From: Microbacterium sp. oral taxon 186 str. F0373
GTDB taxonomy: Bacteria; Actinomycetota; Actinomycetes; Actinomycetales; Microbacteriaceae
DNA: 64,000 nt
Direction of reading: 5' to 3'
Assembly (NCBI RefSeq): GCF_000411455.1
Contig: NZ_KE150458.1
Location: forward strand, 62,001-126,000
The notes below the pieces were generated by a model. That model was not told where the DNA came from, did no database searches, and saw nothing but the letters and a program-made list of their open reading frames with translations. The translations under genes were made by a program, and so were the position numbers. The first letter of the stretch is position 1, and every line of letters begins with the position of its first letter. Below are positions 54,155-62,512 of the stretch, one piece after another.

Positions 54155-54230
54155 GCACCTCTAGCTCAATCGGCAGAGCAACTGACTCTTAATCAGTGGG
54201 TTCTGGGTTCGAGTCCCAGGGGGTGCACCA
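54155..54230 (+). tRNA. tRNA-Lys (CTT), probable integration site
   Basis: A 76-base cloverleaf: acceptor GCACCTC pairs with GGGGTGC (one T-G), anticodon loop CTCTTAA, T-arm CTGGG/CCCAG, encoded CCA. It is followed by a terminator, an excisionase and a tyrosine recombinase gene, so its 3' half is the likely att site of the element to the right. The tRNA is intact. Confidence 0.96.
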
Positions 54231-54432: not shown

Positions 54433-54636
54433 ATGAGCACCCAGACAGCACACTCACCCGCGGCAGCACTCCTCACTCAGGACGAGGCGGCGGAGTACCT
54501 TCGAACCCCTTCGCGCACCCTCGAGAACTGGCGACTTCGCGGCGGTGGCCCCAAGTTCGTGAAGTTCGGACGTCGAGTGTTCTATCGTCAGGGTGCACTC
54601 GACAGCTTCATCGACGACCACGAGGTCGCGTCGTGA
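54433..54636 (+). CDS. Excisionase/AlpA-like DNA-binding protein
   Basis: A 67-residue winged-helix protein of the MerR-like excisionase fold: LLTQDEAAEYLRTPSRTLENWRLRGGGPKFVKFGRRVFYRQGALDSFI. The ATG at 54433 is preceded by a weak site; a longer open frame upstream is the tRNA region and is not used. Its stop overlaps the integrase start (GTGA), so both are translated together. It would set the direction of recombination. Confidence 0.85.
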   Translation: MSTQTAHSPAAALLTQDEAAEYLRTPSRTLENWRLRGGGPKFVKFGRRVFYRQGALDSFIDDHEVAS

Positions 54637-55868
54637 GCCGCCGGCAGAAGGCACCGGGCGAGCTCGGGAAGGTCACCCCCCGCAAGCTGAAGAGTGGACG
54701 GTGGCAAGCGCGCGTAGAGATTCGGGACGGCCTGGGACAGCTCGTTCCGATCTCGGCCACAGCGGACAACGAAGCTGGGGCGATCCTCGCCATCGCGGAC
54801 AAGGCCAACGCTGTCTGGGCTGGTGCGTTCATCGAGGTCACCGGGGACACGACGGTCGAGGCTCTTGGCAATATCTGGATCAACCAGCTGCGTCAGGACG
54901 GCACTCAGCCAACGACCATCCAGGCTTACCAAGATTCGCTGCGCACGCTGATTCTCGCTCGAATCTCGGCGTATCGGGTGAGCGCACTGACTCCCGCGTT
55001 TTGCGACAGCTACTTGCGCACGCTGGGAGCTGAGTCGGCTTCCAAGGCGCGCAAGGCGCGGAACGTGCTCTCCCAGATGCTTCGCATCGCGGTGCTCCAC
55101 AAAGTGTTCGCGGCGAACCCCATCCGCGAGGTGAGCCGGATCCCCAGCACGAAGCCGGTGAAGCTGAGCTACGACCTCGAACAGCTGCAGGTGCTCTTCC
55201 GACTCATGTCGGAGTTTCAGGGCAAGAACCCGAGCCGGCGCGGTGGCCGCCGCACTGACCCGCAGATCGCCCTCGACGTGATGCGCATCGCGCTGGGCAC
55301 GAGCGCCCGCCCCGGCGAAGTGCTTGCCATTCGAGAAGAGGACGTCCAATTCAGCGATCGCGTCCTTCTCAACATCAACGGGACAATCGTGAGGGTCAAG
55401 AGGGAGAATGCCCCAAAGCGTCCCGATGGTACCCCCGGCCCGCTCATCTACAGGCAGCCCTATCCGAAGAACGACGATCAGGCTCGCACAGTTCACGTGC
55501 CGGATCTTGCCGTGGAACCGCTCCGCCGACTGGTGAGCCAGTATCGAGAGAACGAGTTCAAACTGCTGTTCACTACCGGCACCGGGAACCCGGTAGACCA
55601 GAACAACGTCCGACGGGTGATCCGCGACTTCCGCGCCGTCCACGACGAAGATCTCCGTGCGATGGGTATTGACCCTGACCTGCTGACGCCCAAGGCCTTC
55701 CGGAAGACCGCCGCCACCGTGGTGTCGCAGGAGATCAATCCGGAGGCGGCGCAGGACCTGTTGGGTCACTGGAACGTGGTCCTCACGAAGGACTCATACA
55801 TCGAGCCTACGAAGGTAGTCACAGCGGGCACCGCCGAGGCGCTGGACCGCCGATTCGCGGGACTCTGA
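54633..55868 (+). CDS. Tyrosine recombinase/integrase
   Basis: A 411-residue integrase. An N-terminal AP2-like and SAM-like DNA-binding region (about 1-170) is followed by the catalytic domain with Arg226 (GTSARPGEVL), Arg357 (KAFRKTAAT), His379 (LLGHWN) and nucleophile Tyr389 (DSYIEP). The usual His two before the second Arg is replaced, giving KAFR. It adjoins tRNA-Lys in the same direction, the classical site for integration into a tRNA 3' end. Confidence 0.93.
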   Translation: MSRRQKAPGELGKVTPRKLKSGRWQARVEIRDGLGQLVPISATADNEAGAILAIADKANAVWAGAFIEVTGDTTVEALGNIWINQLRQDGTQPTTIQAYQDSLRTLILARISAYRVSALTPAFCDSYLRTLGAESASKARKARNVLSQMLRIAVLHKVFAANPIREVSRIPSTKPVKLSYDLEQLQVLFRLMSEFQGKNPSRRGGRRTDPQIALDVMRIALGTSARPGEVLAIREEDVQFSDRVLLNINGTIVRVKRENAPKRPDGTPGPLIYRQPYPKNDDQARTVHVPDLAVEPLRRLVSQYRENEFKLLFTTGTGNPVDQNNVRRVIRDFRAVHDEDLRAMGIDPDLLTPKAFRKTAATVVSQEINPEAAQDLLGHWNVVLTKDSYIEPTKVVTAGTAEALDRRFAGL

Positions 55869-56042: not shown

Positions 56043-56798
56043 TCAGAAGGGCACCGATGCGCGGCGCTGCGCCTCGTCATCGCTGGGGTCCCGTCGCTTC
56101 ACCTCGTCGGCAATGCTCGCCATGAAATCCTCGTAGTGGCTGGTGAGCACGGTGAGGTCCGACCTGTCCAGCCGACCAAGAGCATTCGACGCCTCCTCGT
56201 CGGACGCGGTCGCGGCGATCAGCATGTCCGCGAAGCCGTTCCCGCCCTGGCCGAGGAGCGCGGCGCGGGTGTGAATCAGATGCGTGTCGGCTTTGCACGC
56301 GGGACCGTCGATGTCGACCTTCGGTTCGCGGATGGGGATCCGCCACAGGGTCGCCGAGACCTCACCGCCGCCGTCGCTCACGACTCGCTCGAACCCTGCC
56401 GCTTCCATCTCGCCATCCGTGGTGATGGAATGCAGTGGCACGTCGTCCAGGTCGTCGACCTGCTCGCCGTCAGCATCCTCGAGCCAGCGCGCACGGGGAT
56501 ACGCGCCCTCCCAGTCGTCTTCATCGAAGTGGACGATCGCGTACGCGGCGTCGTCGGGCGCTGTCTCGAGGATCTCTGCCATCAACTGCTCTACCTCAGC
56601 AGCGACGGCTCGGCTGTTCGCGTAGTAAGCGGAGGTTCGGGCGGCATCTGCAGCTTCGCGTGCCCGCATTGTCACTTCTTCCCGCGACGGGGCGGGACGT
56701 GTGAGCGCGTCGGCTGGCGCGCTGTTCTCCTTCGTGCGGAACTGGCCGGCGTTCGCCGCCTGACCGCGTGGGTGGAGGGACTCGTCGTGGGTGCTCAT
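56043..56798 (-). CDS. Tagged element protein A, unknown function
   Basis: A 251-residue protein whose start MSTHDESLHPRGQAANAGQF is shared with three other genes here. After the tag, residues 30-251 are acidic (EDDWEGAYPRARWLEDADGEQVDDLDD) and have no recognised domain. Cys is nearly absent. It lies after the second tagged gene on this strand, 21 bases from its stop, so they form an operon. ATG is fixed by the tag and by GTGGTC directly upstream, which is also shared. Confidence 0.7.
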   Translation of the reverse strand: MSTHDESLHPRGQAANAGQFRTKENSAPADALTRPAPSREEVTMRAREAADAARTSAYYANSRAVAAEVEQLMAEILETAPDDAAYAIVHFDEDDWEGAYPRARWLEDADGEQVDDLDDVPLHSITTDGEMEAAGFERVVSDGGGEVSATLWRIPIREPKVDIDGPACKADTHLIHTRAALLGQGGNGFADMLIAATASDEEASNALGRLDRSDLTVLTSHYEDFMASIADEVKRRDPSDDEAQRRASVPF

Positions 56799-56818
56799 GA
56801 CCACCATGAGTGCGGCGG

Positions 56819-57925
56819 TCAGCCGGCGAGGAGCCCAGCCTTCCGGAGCCGGTAGCGGACGTTGGAGGCATTCACAGGGAGGTTGCGGCCGCGAACCTCG
56901 AGGGCCCGGTCGAACTGCGCCTTCTGCCGATCGATCCACTCGTTCGCGAGCTTGCGCGTGTCGCCGCGATAGCCCGTTCCGATGACGTCGCGCGGTCGGA
57001 TGCGGCCCGCGGCGAGATCGGAACGGAGCTTGACGAGCGCGTCGAGCTCAAGGCGGCAGGTAGCCTCACCCTGCCCCCCGGCATCCGTGGTCCAGATCGA
57101 CTCGAAGATGTCGTCACCCGGGTGGGGGACCCCATCCACCCACATCCGTTCAGGGGCGCGCAGCTCGGCCAACACGCGGGCGTTGATTGCCACGCGCTCC
57201 GGGGTCACCGGGTGCAGCGATGCCTGCGCCTGAGTTTGAGCTTCCGCCTCGACGATGTCTTCGGGTCGGGGCAGCTCGTACTCGGCGAGGTGCTCTGCGG
57301 GGGTCTTTTCAGGCGGGTAAAGCACGTCAGGACCTTCCCAGTGCTCGCGGTCTTCGTTGCAGTCGCCGTCGTGGCCGTCGACGAGGACGCACCAGTCGTC
57401 GATGCTGCACCCGTACGCCTCGTTCGCTCCGCGCTCGTCGGCGACCTCAAGTCGTCCGTCCGCGCGCCGTGAGACGCGGCCGGTGGAGGGATCCGCCTGC
57501 GGCGTGAACCACACGCTCACTGGCCGTCCGGTGTCGGAAGTGTACGCCGCGGCAACGGCCTGGGCCGCAGCCAGATCGCCATCGAAGCGCTGACACATGT
57601 CGCACCGCTGGATGCCTTCGGGGCTGTCCATACCGACGAGAGCGCCTGGGACCGGGCCGTCGAAGCACTCGCAGTCTCCGTCGAGCGCGGACTGCTCGCT
57701 GCGTGTTGCTCGACCACCGGTGAGATCAATGCCGTTCCCATCGCTGTCCTGCAACCATGGGTTCGTCCTCGACGCGATCATGACGTCCGCCGAGCCGTCC
57801 CAGCGCACGCCGAACCCGGGAATGTCGGCGACGGTGATCAGACGGTCGGTGGGAGCGGAGTTCGTCTTCACTGCGAACCGTCCGGATGCCTGCCTCGGGT
57901 GAAGTGCCTCGTTGTAGGTGCTCAT
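56819..57925 (-). CDS. Tagged element protein B, Cys-rich, unknown function
   Basis: A 368-residue protein starting MSTYNEALHPR then a shortened tag (QASGRFAVKTNSAP). The body has CECFDG, CDMCQRFDGD, CSIDDWC and CNEDREHW clusters (about 78-210), which look like one or two metal or disulfide sites, and a C-terminal basic helix region (about 320-368, VRYRLRKAG). The role is unknown. Related cysteine-rich proteins occur in phage and element genomes of this group. It begins at 57925, within the 16-bp inverted repeat. Confidence 0.68.
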   Translation of the reverse strand: MSTYNEALHPRQASGRFAVKTNSAPTDRLITVADIPGFGVRWDGSADVMIASRTNPWLQDSDGNGIDLTGGRATRSEQSALDGDCECFDGPVPGALVGMDSPEGIQRCDMCQRFDGDLAAAQAVAAAYTSDTGRPVSVWFTPQADPSTGRVSRRADGRLEVADERGANEAYGCSIDDWCVLVDGHDGDCNEDREHWEGPDVLYPPEKTPAEHLAEYELPRPEDIVEAEAQTQAQASLHPVTPERVAINARVLAELRAPERMWVDGVPHPGDDIFESIWTTDAGGQGEATCRLELDALVKLRSDLAAGRIRPRDVIGTGYRGDTRKLANEWIDRQKAQFDRALEVRGRNLPVNASNVRYRLRKAGLLAG

Positions 57926-57967
57926 GACCACATGAGAGCGGCGCCGCACGTATGTGGTCATGAGCAC
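57918..57967. repeat. Perfect inverted repeat covering two divergent start codons
   Basis: GTGCTCATGACCACAT (57918-57933) and its exact complement (57952-57967), separated by 18 bases GAGAGCGGCGCCGCACGT. The ATGs of tagged proteins B and C lie inside the two arms, so the same initiation sequence is used on both strands. A similar sequence precedes the other two tagged genes. Confidence 0.85.
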
Positions 57968-58721
57968 CCCCATCGCGTTCAACGAGACCGACCACCCGCG
58001 CGGCCAGGCCTCGAACGCCGGCCAGTTTCGCGCTAAGGAGAACGCTGCGCCCGCGATGGCGCTCACCGTCGACGAGGCACCCCCGGAGTCGATCTACGGC
58101 AACGTCTCCAGCACGATCATCTTCCAGGAGGCGAACGATCGTGACGACAGCTTCGAGATCGAGCGCGCCGAGATCAACGTCGCGCGGATCCTCGACGGAC
58201 TCGACTTCGAAGACCTCCCGGAGACGGTCGATGACTACGATCGCACCGACGGCCTGTTCCGCTGGGCGGCGAACTACGGCTACATCGCCGAGCACGGCGG
58301 CCCGTTCGAGGTGATTCTTGACGACGCGGAACTCGAGTCGTATCGTGCCGCACGCGAGAAGTCTGGGCGGATGAGCGCACTGCACCCGCTACCGACCATG
58401 ACCGAGCAGGAACGGGAAGCGAAGGTCGCGCAGCTGCTCAGCGAACATCTGCCCGAGGGCGGCCTGAATGCGCTCTACAGCTGGGACATCGACCAGGCTG
58501 CGCGCTGGGCATGGGACACGCGGCAGGAGATCACGAAGGCGACGATTCAGCGGGGTATCCAGCAGCAGTACCTCTCCGACGAGACACGCACCGTGCTCGA
58601 TCGGCTGCAGAACGCCGCACTCACCGCGTACCAGAACACTCGGAAGGACACCGACATCGCTGTCATCCGCGCGGCTGCTTACGGGATCTACGAGCATCTC
58701 GCCCGCCGAGGTTCCCATTGA
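57960..58721 (+). CDS. Tagged element protein C, unknown function
   Basis: A 253-residue protein. It starts MSTPIAFNETDHPRGQASNAGQF, the same tag as its neighbours. The body is largely helical and acidic (FEIERAEINVARILDGLDFEDLPETVDDYDR), with no membrane segment or catalytic motif. The next tagged gene starts 19 bases on. ATG at 57960 is used; a GTG two codons upstream is less likely because the other tagged genes begin at ATGAGCACC. Confidence 0.68.
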   Translation: MSTPIAFNETDHPRGQASNAGQFRAKENAAPAMALTVDEAPPESIYGNVSSTIIFQEANDRDDSFEIERAEINVARILDGLDFEDLPETVDDYDRTDGLFRWAANYGYIAEHGGPFEVILDDAELESYRAAREKSGRMSALHPLPTMTEQEREAKVAQLLSEHLPEGGLNALYSWDIDQAARWAWDTRQEITKATIQRGIQQQYLSDETRTVLDRLQNAALTAYQNTRKDTDIAVIRAAAYGIYEHLARRGSH

Positions 58722-58740
58722 CGCCGCACTCATGGTGAAC

Positions 58741-59733
58741 ATGAGCACCGTCTTCGTCGAGACCGATCACCCCCGCGGGCAGGCCGCCAACGCCGGCCAG
58801 TTCCGAGAGAAGAAGAACGACTCGCCCTCGGGCGCCCTGGTCGCTGAGCATGCGAACCCGCTCGCGGTCCGCTTCGACACCCTCGAAGAGAAGATCGAAG
58901 CGATGAAGGAGGAGCTCGCAATCGGAGTGGCCGAGCTCGCCGACGACGAGAACTGGCAGCGCCACCTCGAGGTGATGAGCCAGTTCCACCAATACAGCTT
59001 CCAGAACCAGATCCTGATCTCCATCCAGCGGCCCAACGCTACGCGCGTCGCCGGTTTCAAGGTGTGGAAGGGTGTCGGACGCTGCGTCATGAAGGGTGAG
59101 AAGGGCATCGCGATCCTCGCCCCGAAGGTGATCAACCGGCGGAACAAGGAGACCGGCGAGCCGGAGCTGGACGCCAACGGAAAGCCGGTGCGAGCGGTTG
59201 TCGGGTTTACCAGCGCCACCGTCTTTGACGTTTCCCAGACCGATGGTGAGCCGCTGCCCGAGGTGTACCAGGAGCTCAGCGAGGACCCGCCCGCCGGGTT
59301 CGTCGAGGATCTCGAGGCTGCGATCGTCGCGAACGGGTTCGAGGTCGTCTACGAGAAGACCGGCAGCGCCGCTCTCGGCTACACCAGCCCGTCATCCAAG
59401 CGTGTGGTCATCGATCCGGACCTGTCGCCGGGCACCCGCGCCACGACCCTCGCGCACGAGCTCGGACACATCGAGTGCGGCCACCTGGAACGCATGGACG
59501 AGTACCACTCCGGTCACGGCGGATGCCGCGGAGAGATGGAAGTGCAGGCGGAGTCGTTCTCGTACGTTCTCGCCCGGATGAACGGGATGCAGACGAACCT
59601 GAAGCCCGCCAGCGAGTATGTCGCAGGCTGGGGGCGCCACGACAAGGACGCTCTCAGGAAGGTTGGCGACACGCTCCAGAAGGCAGTGAAGGGCGCCGTC
59701 GGGCGGGTGAAGTGGCGGAACCACGAGGCGTGA
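58741..59733 (+). CDS. ArdC-like / zinc metallopeptidase fusion with the element tag
   Basis: A 330-residue protein with the tag (MSTVFVETDHPRGQAANAG), then an ArdC-type ssDNA-binding region (about 50-120, FHQYSFQNQILISIQRPNATRVAGFKVWKGVGRCVMKGEKGIAILAP), and a zinc peptidase site HELGH at 239-243 with a later Glu (ESFSYVLARM). ArdC proteins shield incoming plasmid DNA from restriction; the peptidase half resembles ImmA/IrrE. Here the order and the tag suggest it is handled together with proteins A-C. Confidence 0.78.
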   Translation: MSTVFVETDHPRGQAANAGQFREKKNDSPSGALVAEHANPLAVRFDTLEEKIEAMKEELAIGVAELADDENWQRHLEVMSQFHQYSFQNQILISIQRPNATRVAGFKVWKGVGRCVMKGEKGIAILAPKVINRRNKETGEPELDANGKPVRAVVGFTSATVFDVSQTDGEPLPEVYQELSEDPPAGFVEDLEAAIVANGFEVVYEKTGSAALGYTSPSSKRVVIDPDLSPGTRATTLAHELGHIECGHLERMDEYHSGHGGCRGEMEVQAESFSYVLARMNGMQTNLKPASEYVAGWGRHDKDALRKVGDTLQKAVKGAVGRVKWRNHEA

Positions 59734-60259: not shown

Positions 60260-62512
60260 TCACAGCTGGCTACCGATGAACGCCTTCGCCTCGTCGAGGG
60301 TGGTCATCTTCCGACCGAACGCTCGCACGGCGTCCATGTAGGTGAGGCGGGTCGGCTCCGGGTAGGCCAACGGAGACGGTGCCGTCGGCGTCGCCTTCAG
60401 CATGCGCGGGTCGAGCACGGCCACCAGGCCGGTGTCGCTGGAGGTGCGGATGAGACGCCCGACTGCCTGCTGGAGCAGCAGCGCCGCGTCGACCGCGTAT
60501 ACGGCGCGCTGCGCCTCGGAGACGTTGCTGATGCGCTCGTTGATCTGCTCCACGCGGGCCTCATCGAGCGGGTTACCGGGGGAGCGGGGCACCCGGTCGA
60601 TGACGACCAGCGAGCACGTCTCGCCGGGGGCGTCGACGCCGGTCATCATTGTCTTCGTGCCTACGAGCACGCTGCCAACATCCTCGCGCCACTCGCGGAC
60701 GATGCGGGTGGATGATCCGCCGTCCCACTGCGAGTGGACCTTCACGCGCGGCAAAGCGCTACGGAGCGCCTCCGTGTACGCACGTCCCTCCCGTGCTGTC
60801 GCGGAGAGGATCAGCGCTCGACCGCCAGTGGCGCGCACGAGCTCGATGATCTGCTTCGTCGCCCACTGAGCGTGCCCGCGTACGTCGAATCGCCGCTTGT
60901 TGCCCCATCCCTCTGTTGTGATCTGACCGAAGTCGGGTCCGGCGACGACGCGTGGGATGTAGAGGCCCGACCGCTGGTACGCCGCGTTGAAAGGCGACGG
61001 GTACTTCACCAGTTGCGCGGCCAGTCCAGCCTGGAACGGGTAGTTGGAGGGCATCGTCGCGCTGATCGCGGACACAGACAAGCTCACGTGCTCAGTGACG
61101 TCATCGTCGACCTTCAGGTCGTAGCCGTAGAGATTGTCCCGGAGGAGGAACCCGACGTCGATCGGAGAGACGTTCGCTCCCCACCAGTCTCGTGACTTCG
61201 CGGCGTCGCCACGATCGTCTTTCTCCACCCAGCGCGCCCAACCGCTGCGGTGGCGGGTGAGCGCTTCCACGGTCTGCTTGAGACTGTCGAGCGCGTCTTT
61301 CGCTGAGCTGGCTCGGATCCGCGTCGTGACGTCGCTCGACTCGGTGTTCTTGCCGAGGTGCTTCTTGCCCGCGTCGATCCAGTCCTTGATCAGCTTTTCG
61401 GTGTCGCCGAGAGGGCGGTCCGACTCCTTGACGCGGCGCAGGCCGTCCTTCCCGCCGAGCGTGAAGTCTCGGAGCAGCCGGTCGAGCTCCTCGGCGAGGT
61501 GCTCCCCAGCGTCGCGCCAGGTCAGCGACGCGGAGGTGTTCCCACACGCTCGGGTGACGGAGCGCCCGATGCGCCCGAGAGTGCCGCCGGAGAGCTTCGC
61601 GGCGCCCTGGGATCGCACGTGGGAGGGGAGGGTGTGCGCTTCGTCGACGATGATGTGCTCGAAGTGGCCGAGCTTCATGCTGCCGACGATGACGGGGACC
61701 GCTTTCGCGGCTTGAACGGCGAGGATCGAGTGGTTCGTGATGACGACGTCGGCGCCGGCGGCGTGCTCCCGGGCGATTGTGACCTTCGCGGTGACACCGA
61801 AACGGGATCCGTCGTCGGCTTCGCTTGACGGTGACGACACGGTCGCCCACATCGCTGCGGAGTGCTCGATGGGGCAGGAGTGGCGGTCTCCAGGCTCGTC
61901 CGGGTCGTCCGCGAAGTAGGCGCGGCACGCCCATGACACGAGGCGCCGCAGCGGCTCGAGCTCGTCCAGTTCGAGGCCGTACAGCTGTTCGAGACCGTGG
62001 AGGGGGCGGCCCTTGTCGAGCACGTCGGCAAGGTCACGGTAGCGGAACGTGCCCGCTTCCCCCGTGAGCAGTTGCGCGGTCGAGATCACCTTCGCGGGGT
62101 CGATGTAGTTCGCGACGCCCTTCATGAACGCGGCGCTGACGCTGACGTCCGGGTAGAGTTCGCCTGCCGCCTCGACGACGATGGGCACGTCCTTGTCCTG
62201 CAGCTGTGCCATCAGCGCGAGCGAGTCGGTGGAGATCACCGTGCGCTCACCGCGGCGGATCGCCGCGAGAAATGCGGCCGCCAGCGCCGCGAACGACTTG
62301 CCCGACCCGGTCGGAGCCTGCCCAGCCGTGTGCCCGCGCCCTTCCATAGCCGCGACGATCGCACGGTGCAGGGCGTCCTGGCCCTCACGAGGCTTGGCGT
62401 CGAGTAGGCCCGTGGTGATACGCACGGCGCGCGTCAGGAGCGCGGAGCTGTCTCCGATCGGGACGGTAGCGAGGTCGAGATCTGCGAGGGTCCCGGAGGA
62501 GGCGAGGGTCAT
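60260..62512 (-). CDS. DinG-like superfamily 2 DNA helicase
   Basis: A 750-residue XPD/DinG-type helicase. Walker A APTGSGKSF (Lys72), DEAH in IIVDEAHTLPSH (about 288), then ALILSATAREGRAYTEAL, GTKTMMTGVDAPG and QAVGRLIRTSSDTG (motif VI). The four cysteines that hold the iron-sulfur cluster in DinG are mostly missing: the usual NYxC reads MKGVANYID near 130, and later only WACRAY and RHSCP remain. It begins 25 bases after the kinase gene and is the last gene of this leftward operon. ATG at 62512 is used. Confidence 0.85.
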   Translation of the reverse strand: MTLASSGTLADLDLATVPIGDSSALLTRAVRITTGLLDAKPREGQDALHRAIVAAMEGRGHTAGQAPTGSGKSFAALAAAFLAAIRRGERTVISTDSLALMAQLQDKDVPIVVEAAGELYPDVSVSAAFMKGVANYIDPAKVISTAQLLTGEAGTFRYRDLADVLDKGRPLHGLEQLYGLELDELEPLRRLVSWACRAYFADDPDEPGDRHSCPIEHSAAMWATVSSPSSEADDGSRFGVTAKVTIAREHAAGADVVITNHSILAVQAAKAVPVIVGSMKLGHFEHIIVDEAHTLPSHVRSQGAAKLSGGTLGRIGRSVTRACGNTSASLTWRDAGEHLAEELDRLLRDFTLGGKDGLRRVKESDRPLGDTEKLIKDWIDAGKKHLGKNTESSDVTTRIRASSAKDALDSLKQTVEALTRHRSGWARWVEKDDRGDAAKSRDWWGANVSPIDVGFLLRDNLYGYDLKVDDDVTEHVSLSVSAISATMPSNYPFQAGLAAQLVKYPSPFNAAYQRSGLYIPRVVAGPDFGQITTEGWGNKRRFDVRGHAQWATKQIIELVRATGGRALILSATAREGRAYTEALRSALPRVKVHSQWDGGSSTRIVREWREDVGSVLVGTKTMMTGVDAPGETCSLVVIDRVPRSPGNPLDEARVEQINERISNVSEAQRAVYAVDAALLLQQAVGRLIRTSSDTGLVAVLDPRMLKATPTAPSPLAYPEPTRLTYMDAVRAFGRKMTTLDEAKAFIGSQL

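Follow-up and report, generated by a model that had tools for sequence, protein, structure and literature searches.

The stretch of DNA analysed here, hereafter the window, comprises 64,000 nucleotides of Microbacterium sp. oral taxon 186 str. F0373 (genome 3.17 Mb in 7 contigs), namely positions 62,001 to 126,000 of contig NZ_KE150458.1, abbreviated C2 (C2:62001-126000). It holds the left end of an element integrated at a tRNA-Lys gene (the C2 element), in which four neighbouring genes, starting at 56798(-), 57925(-), 57960(+) and 58741(+), encode proteins that share one N-terminal sequence, referred to below as the tag, ahead of differing bodies. The features of this region are listed in window coordinates.

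54155..54230, + strand: tRNA-Lys (CTT), the integration target (ARAGORN)
54192..54229, + strand: attL, 38 bp; second copy at C2:326516-326553 (right end, beyond the window)
54433..54636, + strand: small open reading frame, helix-turn-helix/excisionase-like by sequence appearance alone
54633..55868, + strand: tyrosine integrase of the element (PHROG 1 integrase, E 2.5e-41)
56043..56798, - strand: tagged gene 1, P0001, acidic body, no Pfam family
56799..56816, - strand: tag-type start box GCCGCACTCATGGTGGTC preceding the ATG of P0001
56819..57925, - strand: tagged gene 2, P0002, Cys-containing body, no Pfam family
57926..57959, no strand: palindromic gap of 34 bp with divergent ATGs on both sides and two back-to-back start boxes
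57960..58721, + strand: tagged gene 3, P0003, no Pfam family
58723..58740, + strand: tag-type start box GCCGCACTCATGGTGAAC preceding the ATG of P0004
58741..59733, + strand: tagged gene 4, P0004, tag plus ArdC-N plus M78/IrrE zinc peptidase
60260..62512, - strand: helicase (DEAD + Helicase_C_2), an untagged element gene

Alignment of the four N-termini gave 13 invariant columns (MST, E, HPR, G.F, K.N, P and L) and the shared pattern MST..E..HPR(GQAxNA)GxF..K.N..P...L, in agreement with a previous sequence-only reading of this DNA, which had described a common N-terminus on four bodies unlike each other. No similarity was found among those bodies. P0004 is the fusion of ArdC and a zinc peptidase that had been proposed (Pfam ArdcN, E 2.8e-11; Peptidase_M78, E 8e-9), and P0001, P0002 and P0003 match no Pfam family at E<=1; P0001 is weakly similar to g183, another tagged gene of the same element (E 8e-5).

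A 38-bp 3' part of the tRNA-Lys gene at C2:116192 is repeated at C2:326516, which gives the element a length of about 210 kb; such repeats at a tRNA gene, here 210 kb apart, together with a tyrosine integrase, are characteristic of an integrative and conjugative element. Gene calling gave 234 genes, and an iterated profile run over six frames found 25 tagged genes. With a profile of the four window tags, 21 frames scored E<1e-6 in the genome, all of them within C2:118694-308110, and the best match outside the element had E 0.03 in this search of the 3.17-Mb genome with the four-tag profile, the third tag form described below not having been searched for in the chromosome. For 21 of 21 frames to fall within 6.6% of the genome P is 2e-25, and the clustering is therefore not due to chance. 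The link to mobile DNA and a tyrosine integrase that the sequence-only reading had proposed is thus borne out, and the even spread over chromosomal genes, which it had named as the outcome that would count against it, is not seen in this genome. The element also carries its own DNA polymerase and, at C2:211600-216039 outside the window, an array of 26 tRNA genes. At C2:260528 a start box is followed by a tag remnant, MSFDHSLRPRGQAIGSG, and then a stop, apparently a decayed tagged gene.

Three related forms of the tag occur on giant plasmids and integrated elements, mainly in Micrococcales, and the tagged elements are large mobile DNA of soil actinobacteria in which dozens of otherwise unrelated proteins carry a tag. 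It occupies about 30 N-terminal residues (R-x-P-x-G-x(3)-G-G-Q-F-A-x(3)-[HRQN]-x-E-P-x-V-x-L); among the tags that could be aligned on G-x-F (189/197), R is found in 69% at -9, G in 63% at -1, Q in 79%, F in 96%, A in 69%, E in 61% at +9, P in 59% at +10 and L in 93% at +14. The HPR form, which is that of the window, was found in 6 of 72,556 plasmid records, namely three from Curtobacterium (546-608 kb), one from Glaciihabitans (149 kb), one from Arthrobacter (401 kb) and one from Nonomuraea that looks like a chance match, and in 5 of 398 Microbacteriaceae genomes (the family sample). The GGQF form is present at 17 to at least 40 places on each of five Arthrobacter-type plasmids of 375-440 kb, and in 11 of 396 genomes of the order (the order sample); a match in Roseomonas is probably due to chance. 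The kinship with GGQFA-type N-termini of other actinobacteria, which the sequence-only reading had raised, is thereby substantiated. The family and order samples partly overlap, and at most 20 candidates were scored per genome in the tag searches made in them. In a phylum sample the GGQF alignment matched 0 of 396 genomes, a negative that covers one form, as the same alignment also misses the C2 element. The third form, RKRDTGExGNxGEFGxxxRGEADVxV, occurs in the sampled genomes G990 (8), G1067 (5), G1118 (3) and G372 (1), with a best E of 1.6 in a control on reversed sequences, and two Curtobacterium plasmids carry it together with the HPR form.

Read over its whole length, plasmid pACHL01 (427 kb, NC_011879.1) yielded 49 tagged frames initially and 51 once the final threshold was applied; 47 were counted in a 340-kb stretch of the G1041 chromosome, bridge forms such as HPRVPTGISAGGQFATKPRTESGVQL among them, and 9 on the 149-kb Glaciihabitans plasmid. 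The tagged share of called genes is 6-12% in four elements (23/234, 47/533, 43/351 and 9/156). A scan of assembly contigs gave 31 loci in 12 assemblies, mostly of Arthrobacter and relatives; four of the assemblies are metagenome-assembled genomes and one carries the label Acidimicrobiaceae.

That the tag sits on unrelated cargo was confirmed on a larger scale: 200 tagged frames gave 190 bodies of at least 60 aa, which fall into 144 homology clusters, 117 of them singletons (25 bodies in 24 clusters for the C2 element, 50 in 46 for pACHL01 and 45 in 44 for G1041). Such diversity is not that of a motif belonging to a single fold, and in the one model made, that of g194, the tag is disordered (pLDDT <50 at residues 1-34) and most of the body folded, with a Foldseek match to a KTSC-type part alone. 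The same kind of body is found with and without the tag: LigA has it on pACHL01 but not in the C2 element (g223), G263 or G1041; Fic has it on pACHL01 and in G280 but not in G1041; GmrSD_N/DUF262 has it in the C2 element but not in Glaciihabitans or G1041; and an HD/PolyA_pol-type enzyme has it on pACHL01 and in G1041 but not in G263. Some of the homologues counted as untagged have weak tags below threshold (e.g., G808, G1073, D40), so that tag loss is overcounted. In the g194 family a tag-like N-terminus is present in 10/10 aligned members, which are 27-42% identical to the C2 copy, those of G808 and G1073 scoring just E 0.3 with the profiles used. The median tag start lies at residues 1-9, and past residue 40 in 1 of 122 tagged proteins. 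For residues that two tags of one element have in common, codon usage in the bodies predicts a certain rate of codon difference, and the observed rate is 0.77-0.89 of it. As the residues hold and their codons vary, it is the peptide that is selected; recent copying of a single DNA cassette as the source of the tags is rejected.

The cargo is soluble. A membrane-like segment (19-residue hydropathy mean >1.6, a self-chosen cut-off) was found in 0 of 122 tagged proteins compared with 292 of 991 untagged proteins of at least 90 aa from four elements (Fisher 8e-18); tagged bodies are acidic, with a charge per 100 aa of -5.9 compared with -2.6 for untagged soluble proteins, and the median length of tagged proteins is 251.5 aa. 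Pfam families in 183 tagged proteins were DUF7007 (4), DUF2958 (3), ArdcN, Peptidase_M78, LPD29, Fic, PolyA_pol, HD, KTSC and LRV (2 each) and, among the singles, AbiEii, GmrSD_N, Sigma70_r2 (probably g209), LigA, SprT and ParBc_2. The machine and replication genes named in the C2 element have no N-terminal tag.

The GTGGTC or GTGAAC noticed next to the ATG lies within a longer box, GCCGCACTCATGGTGnnC, which abuts the ATG; it is shared as had been claimed but does not belong to the tag, being part of a separable, element-wide start box, since boxes also stand at untagged genes and several tags have no box. The sequence GCCGCACTCATGGTGnnC followed by ATGA has 9 sites in the genome, all at tagged element genes, and a second type, GCCGTGCATGTGN5Y followed by ATG, has 18, all in the element (C2:124510-326059) and 0 at tagged starts; backward controls gave 0 for both. 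The second type, a possible dedicated promoter or translation signal, precedes untagged genes such as those for dUTPase and PD-(D/E)XK, and by a looser pattern LigA. With that pattern the element has 28 boxes, of which 15 stand ahead of tagged genes; on pACHL01 a looser box has 67 sites, 28 ahead of tagged genes, where shuffles gave 1-5. On pACHL01 the base after GCCGYACAYN is T in 9/29 tagged and 30/32 untagged boxes (p 4e-7). In G1041, 32 of 36 tagged-type sites lie ahead of tagged genes, and the other four precede two prepilins and one small membrane protein or lie just upstream of a tagged gene. Because the box subtypes differ between tagged and untagged genes, the tagged genes would seem, from these sequence patterns, to form a regulon of their own. 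The palindrome at 57926-57959 is near-perfect, and in its 34 bp there is hardly space for a further promoter unless this lies within the coding tags. Nothing upstream of -18, such as a -35 element, was conserved at >0.6 bits in the C2, pACHL01 and G1041 sets (45 nt), the G233 set for this check being two sequences. An RNA hairpin was considered for the box and rejected, as the GCC...GGC complementarity is, by eye, not kept across elements.

Four elements were compared closely: the C2 element, the Glaciihabitans plasmid, pACHL01 and that of G1041. Common to all four are g023 and g038 (function unknown), FtsK g026, PD-(D/E)XK g031, giant FtsK g035, g036 (labelled NERD from the annotation of homologues), g040, T2SSF g168, the PilT/VirB11-like ATPase g169, the tagged g194, and g202, homologues of which are annotated M23 or CHAP; VirB4-like g027 is additionally in pACHL01 and G1041. 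These common genes are mostly those of transfer or pilus systems. The order g040, g038, g037 (small), g036, g035 at C2:145473-154724 is kept in all four, interrupted by one or two additional genes, and this block may be a DNA-transfer module of an unusual kind that has no recognised relaxase. The model of g040 best matches VirB4, TrwB (TM ~0.6, target length) and Cag-beta, with HerA close behind; g027 matches VirB4_CagE at E 4.8e-6, under the curated cut-off. A candidate coupling ATPase and, weakly, a VirB4-type ATPase are therefore present, as in integrative and conjugative elements, and the giant FtsK of Glaciihabitans is weakly TraB-like. Searches of PDB sequences with g040, g027 and the g040 alignment returned no type IV secretion system (T4SS) match, just weak HerA and chance ones.

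The presence of g040, referred to below as the ATPase, is associated with that of the tag. Its profile matches 7/398 genomes of the family sample and 10/396 of the order sample. The intact ATPase is present in 4/5 tagged compared with 2/393 untagged genomes of the family sample (p 7e-8), and in 5/11 tagged compared with 4/385 untagged genomes of the order sample (p 7e-7). Six genomes had an ATPase match and no tag by the HPR or GGQF profile; when 40-80 kb around the ATPase were read, tags were found in five of these, of the HPR form in G212 (E 3.5e-5), of the third form in G990, G1067 and G1118, and a single one in G372, in which the ATPase is a fragment. Tags are thus carried by 13 of 13 sampled genomes in which an ATPase of this family is intact, in four of them seen on second look alone.

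Several side observations concern these elements. The window helicase (60260..62512) is also found on pACHL01, in G1041 and on one contig of IMG/VR. A second common N-terminus, MANPFLxLGxVAVGVxTAxxGVLxVPGW, is shared by seven proteins of 157-426 aa of the C2 element (C2 221911, 224042(-), 250354(-), 250939(-), 313143, 319799 and 324201(-)) and looks like a pilin-type first helix on differing bodies. Plasmid pACHL01 encodes its own SecY, SecE, SecG, NrdE/NrdF, DnaE and LigA and two pilus systems. Clp-N proteins and SecYEG were considered as receptors of the tag and set aside, as they are on pACHL01 and yet no gene of the C2 element best-matches there.

The reading that we favour, with a probability of roughly 0.43, is that the tag is a short header which recruits establishment proteins to a conjugation-type exporter and has them delivered with the DNA. 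Many soluble accessory proteins, 9 to about 50 in each element examined closely, would have their short disordered N-terminal header bound by conjugation-type machinery, most simply by the TrwB/Cag-beta-like coupling ATPase g040 or by a partner in the conserved block; the tagged proteins would then travel with the DNA into the recipient, where ArdC anti-restriction, DNA ligase, the sigma-like protein, Fic, nucleotidyltransferase, HD and polyvalent-type domains may aid establishment. A common signal on otherwise unrelated soluble cargo is what would be expected of proteins delivered by a T4SS, and of the destinations that the sequence-only reading had suggested, the association with a coupling-type ATPase argues for the conjugation channel. 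A wider version of this idea, which we regard as doubtful, is that of a plasmid-wide addressing code with lineage dialects (HPR..GQF, RQPxGIPxGGQF and RKRxTGExGNxGEF), for which the conjugation ATPase block would be the reader and which a separate regulon, that of the start box, would serve, the establishment set entering the recipient with the DNA.

A number of points weigh against delivery. No relaxase was found among the 20 large C2-element proteins scanned with Pfam, and MOB-suite types the tagged plasmid records as non-mobilizable. The ATPase is one of about eleven genes common to the four elements and is not singled out as the receptor. One genome with a partial ATPase match, G983, has no tag in the 40 kb read, and seven tagged genomes (G133, G807, G862, G1068, G1074, G1140 and G1149) have no ATPase, with 1-3 tags each that are perhaps remnants. 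The third form was recognised from weak matches and profiled on the same sequences, which makes the test partly post hoc, and it was searched for in genomes with the ATPase. Most tagged bodies (183 scanned with Pfam) have no recognisable domain. The familiar T4SS signals are mostly C-terminal and poorly conserved. In a T4SS review, the fusions listed for VirF, VirE2, VirE3, VirD5 and MobA are likewise C-terminal.

The main alternative, which in our view is somewhat less likely than delivery, requires no export: the tag would be an address within the donor cell that docks accessory proteins to a plasmid-encoded hub, such as a replication, partition, chaperone or RNA-polymerase-associated assembly. 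Docking peptides are often disordered with a short conserved core, as is the tag; the tagged sigma-like protein, ligase and nucleic-acid enzymes would suit a DNA or RNA hub, and tagged genes have their own start-box subtype. Moreover, the PD-(D/E)XK nuclease g031, g023 and g038 are hub candidates present in all four elements, a consideration that lowered our estimate for delivery from 0.45 to 0.43 and raised that for a hub by a small amount. However, DnaE g193, SSB g199 and the C2-element LigA g223 are untagged, although the LigA of pACHL01 is tagged, and transfer or pilus genes make up most of what the four elements have in common. An improbable further reading is that the tag sets protein lifetime as a stability or processing signal (a degron, a protective N-terminus or a protease site); its disordered N-terminal position would suit this, as would four Clp-N-domain genes near the pACHL01 coupling ATPase, but no C2-element gene best-matches those. 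We consider it just as improbable that start box and tag form one expression module, in which the tag acts through its coding sequence, as a help to transcription or translation, and the peptide itself is without a task. The box has no visible Shine-Dalgarno sequence, abuts many tag ATGs and in its exact forms is restricted to the element; on the other hand, 39/67 pACHL01 boxes and 13/28 C2-element boxes stand ahead of untagged genes, several tags lack a box, and codons vary while residues are constant.

That the tag is a passive join of gene capture, bodies having been inserted behind a common 5' end with a functionless peptide, is very improbable. Arrays with near-identical tags would be in keeping with it, as on contig C5 of G233 (L073-L074), where 17 tagged frames lie mostly on one strand within about 28 kb, 16 of their bodies forming 15 clusters; however, codon variation at shared residues is near random, and the tag-like N-terminus is kept throughout the g194 family at its low identity. 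Least probable of all is a packaging signal for phage particles, the virion having been another destination named in the sequence-only reading. The 26 tRNA genes, the element's own DNA polymerase and its jumbo-phage-like size would fit a phage, but the HPR and GGQF forms had no convincing match among 50,697 phage records, in which the third form was not searched for: the matches were at E 6-9 (47 records of the phiKZ group) and at E 9 (one record). Three matches in IMG/VR lie on two contigs. One has homologues of C2-element genes, among them g208 and g210-g212, next to which a tagged protein occupies the position of g209; on the other are an RtcB-like protein and further tags. In the parts of these contigs read there was no phage hallmark, and both look like the same kind of plasmids. 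No virion family was present among the 25 of 89 PHROG families listed for 64 large untagged C2-element proteins, nor were terminase, portal, capsid or tail genes found by Pfam in 20 large element proteins. The virion thus loses support as a destination, and a prophage reading of the element is weakened.

The closest precedent for the delivery reading is the proposal made for polyvalent proteins of phages and conjugative elements, which puts ArdC-N forward as a possible N-terminal delivery header and names ArdC and TraC1 as proteins that are transferred (Iyer et al., 2017, PMC5512222). The repertoires overlap in ArdC-N, zinc peptidase and LPD29 (2 of 183 tagged proteins each for ArdcN, Peptidase_M78 and LPD29), and the predicted role, that of early helpers delivered with the DNA, is the same (PMC5512222). 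Polyvalent proteins, however, are multidomain and often >2,000 aa (PMC5512222), whereas the tagged proteins are small with differing bodies, P0004 joining two domains and few others having any Pfam family, and what they have in common is no domain but a disordered peptide some 30 residues long. The scheme would thus be a one-domain-per-protein counterpart of polyvalent proteins, with a short shared header in place of a long shared polypeptide. The tagged proteins resemble T4SS substrates (VirD4/TrwB/Cag-beta) in the presence of TrwB/Cag-beta-like and weakly VirB4-like ATPases and in a signal-like peptide on soluble proteins, and differ from them in that the tag is N-terminal and homologous across all cargo.

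The start box recalls the start-associated sequence (SAS) of cluster K mycobacteriophages, GGGATAGGAGCCC, which lies upstream of many start codons, in that a short conserved box is repeated before many starts of one mobile element (PMC3203893). The box of the element is GCCGCACTCATGGTG or GCCGTGCATGTG and not the SAS consensus, and differs also in touching the ATG, in having no visible Shine-Dalgarno sequence and in its tagged and untagged subtypes. Giant linear plasmids of M. avium have units with tRNA arrays of 26-27 genes, compared with 26 here, and a secretion system that lacks relaxase genes, none of which was seen here among the 20 large proteins scanned, but theirs is a hybrid type VII/IV system on linear DNA (PMC12803027). 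For Curtobacterium plasmids, passages of a published account describe relaxases on some and make no mention of N-terminal sequences (PMC10999282). An exact-word search of the open-licence PMC literature returned no description of such a tag, an absence that is weak evidence.

Should the header be a delivery signal, hundreds of plasmid-delivered proteins, most of them unannotated, would be open to listing with a single profile; the gain would be an inventory of likely factors of anti-defence and establishment, along with a portable tag for moving proteins between Gram-positive cells. Even as an intracellular address, a homologous peptide on 6-12% of an element's called genes would be a form of protein organisation that we have not found described, and in either case the tag offers a handle on giant plasmids which are at present typed as non-mobilizable.

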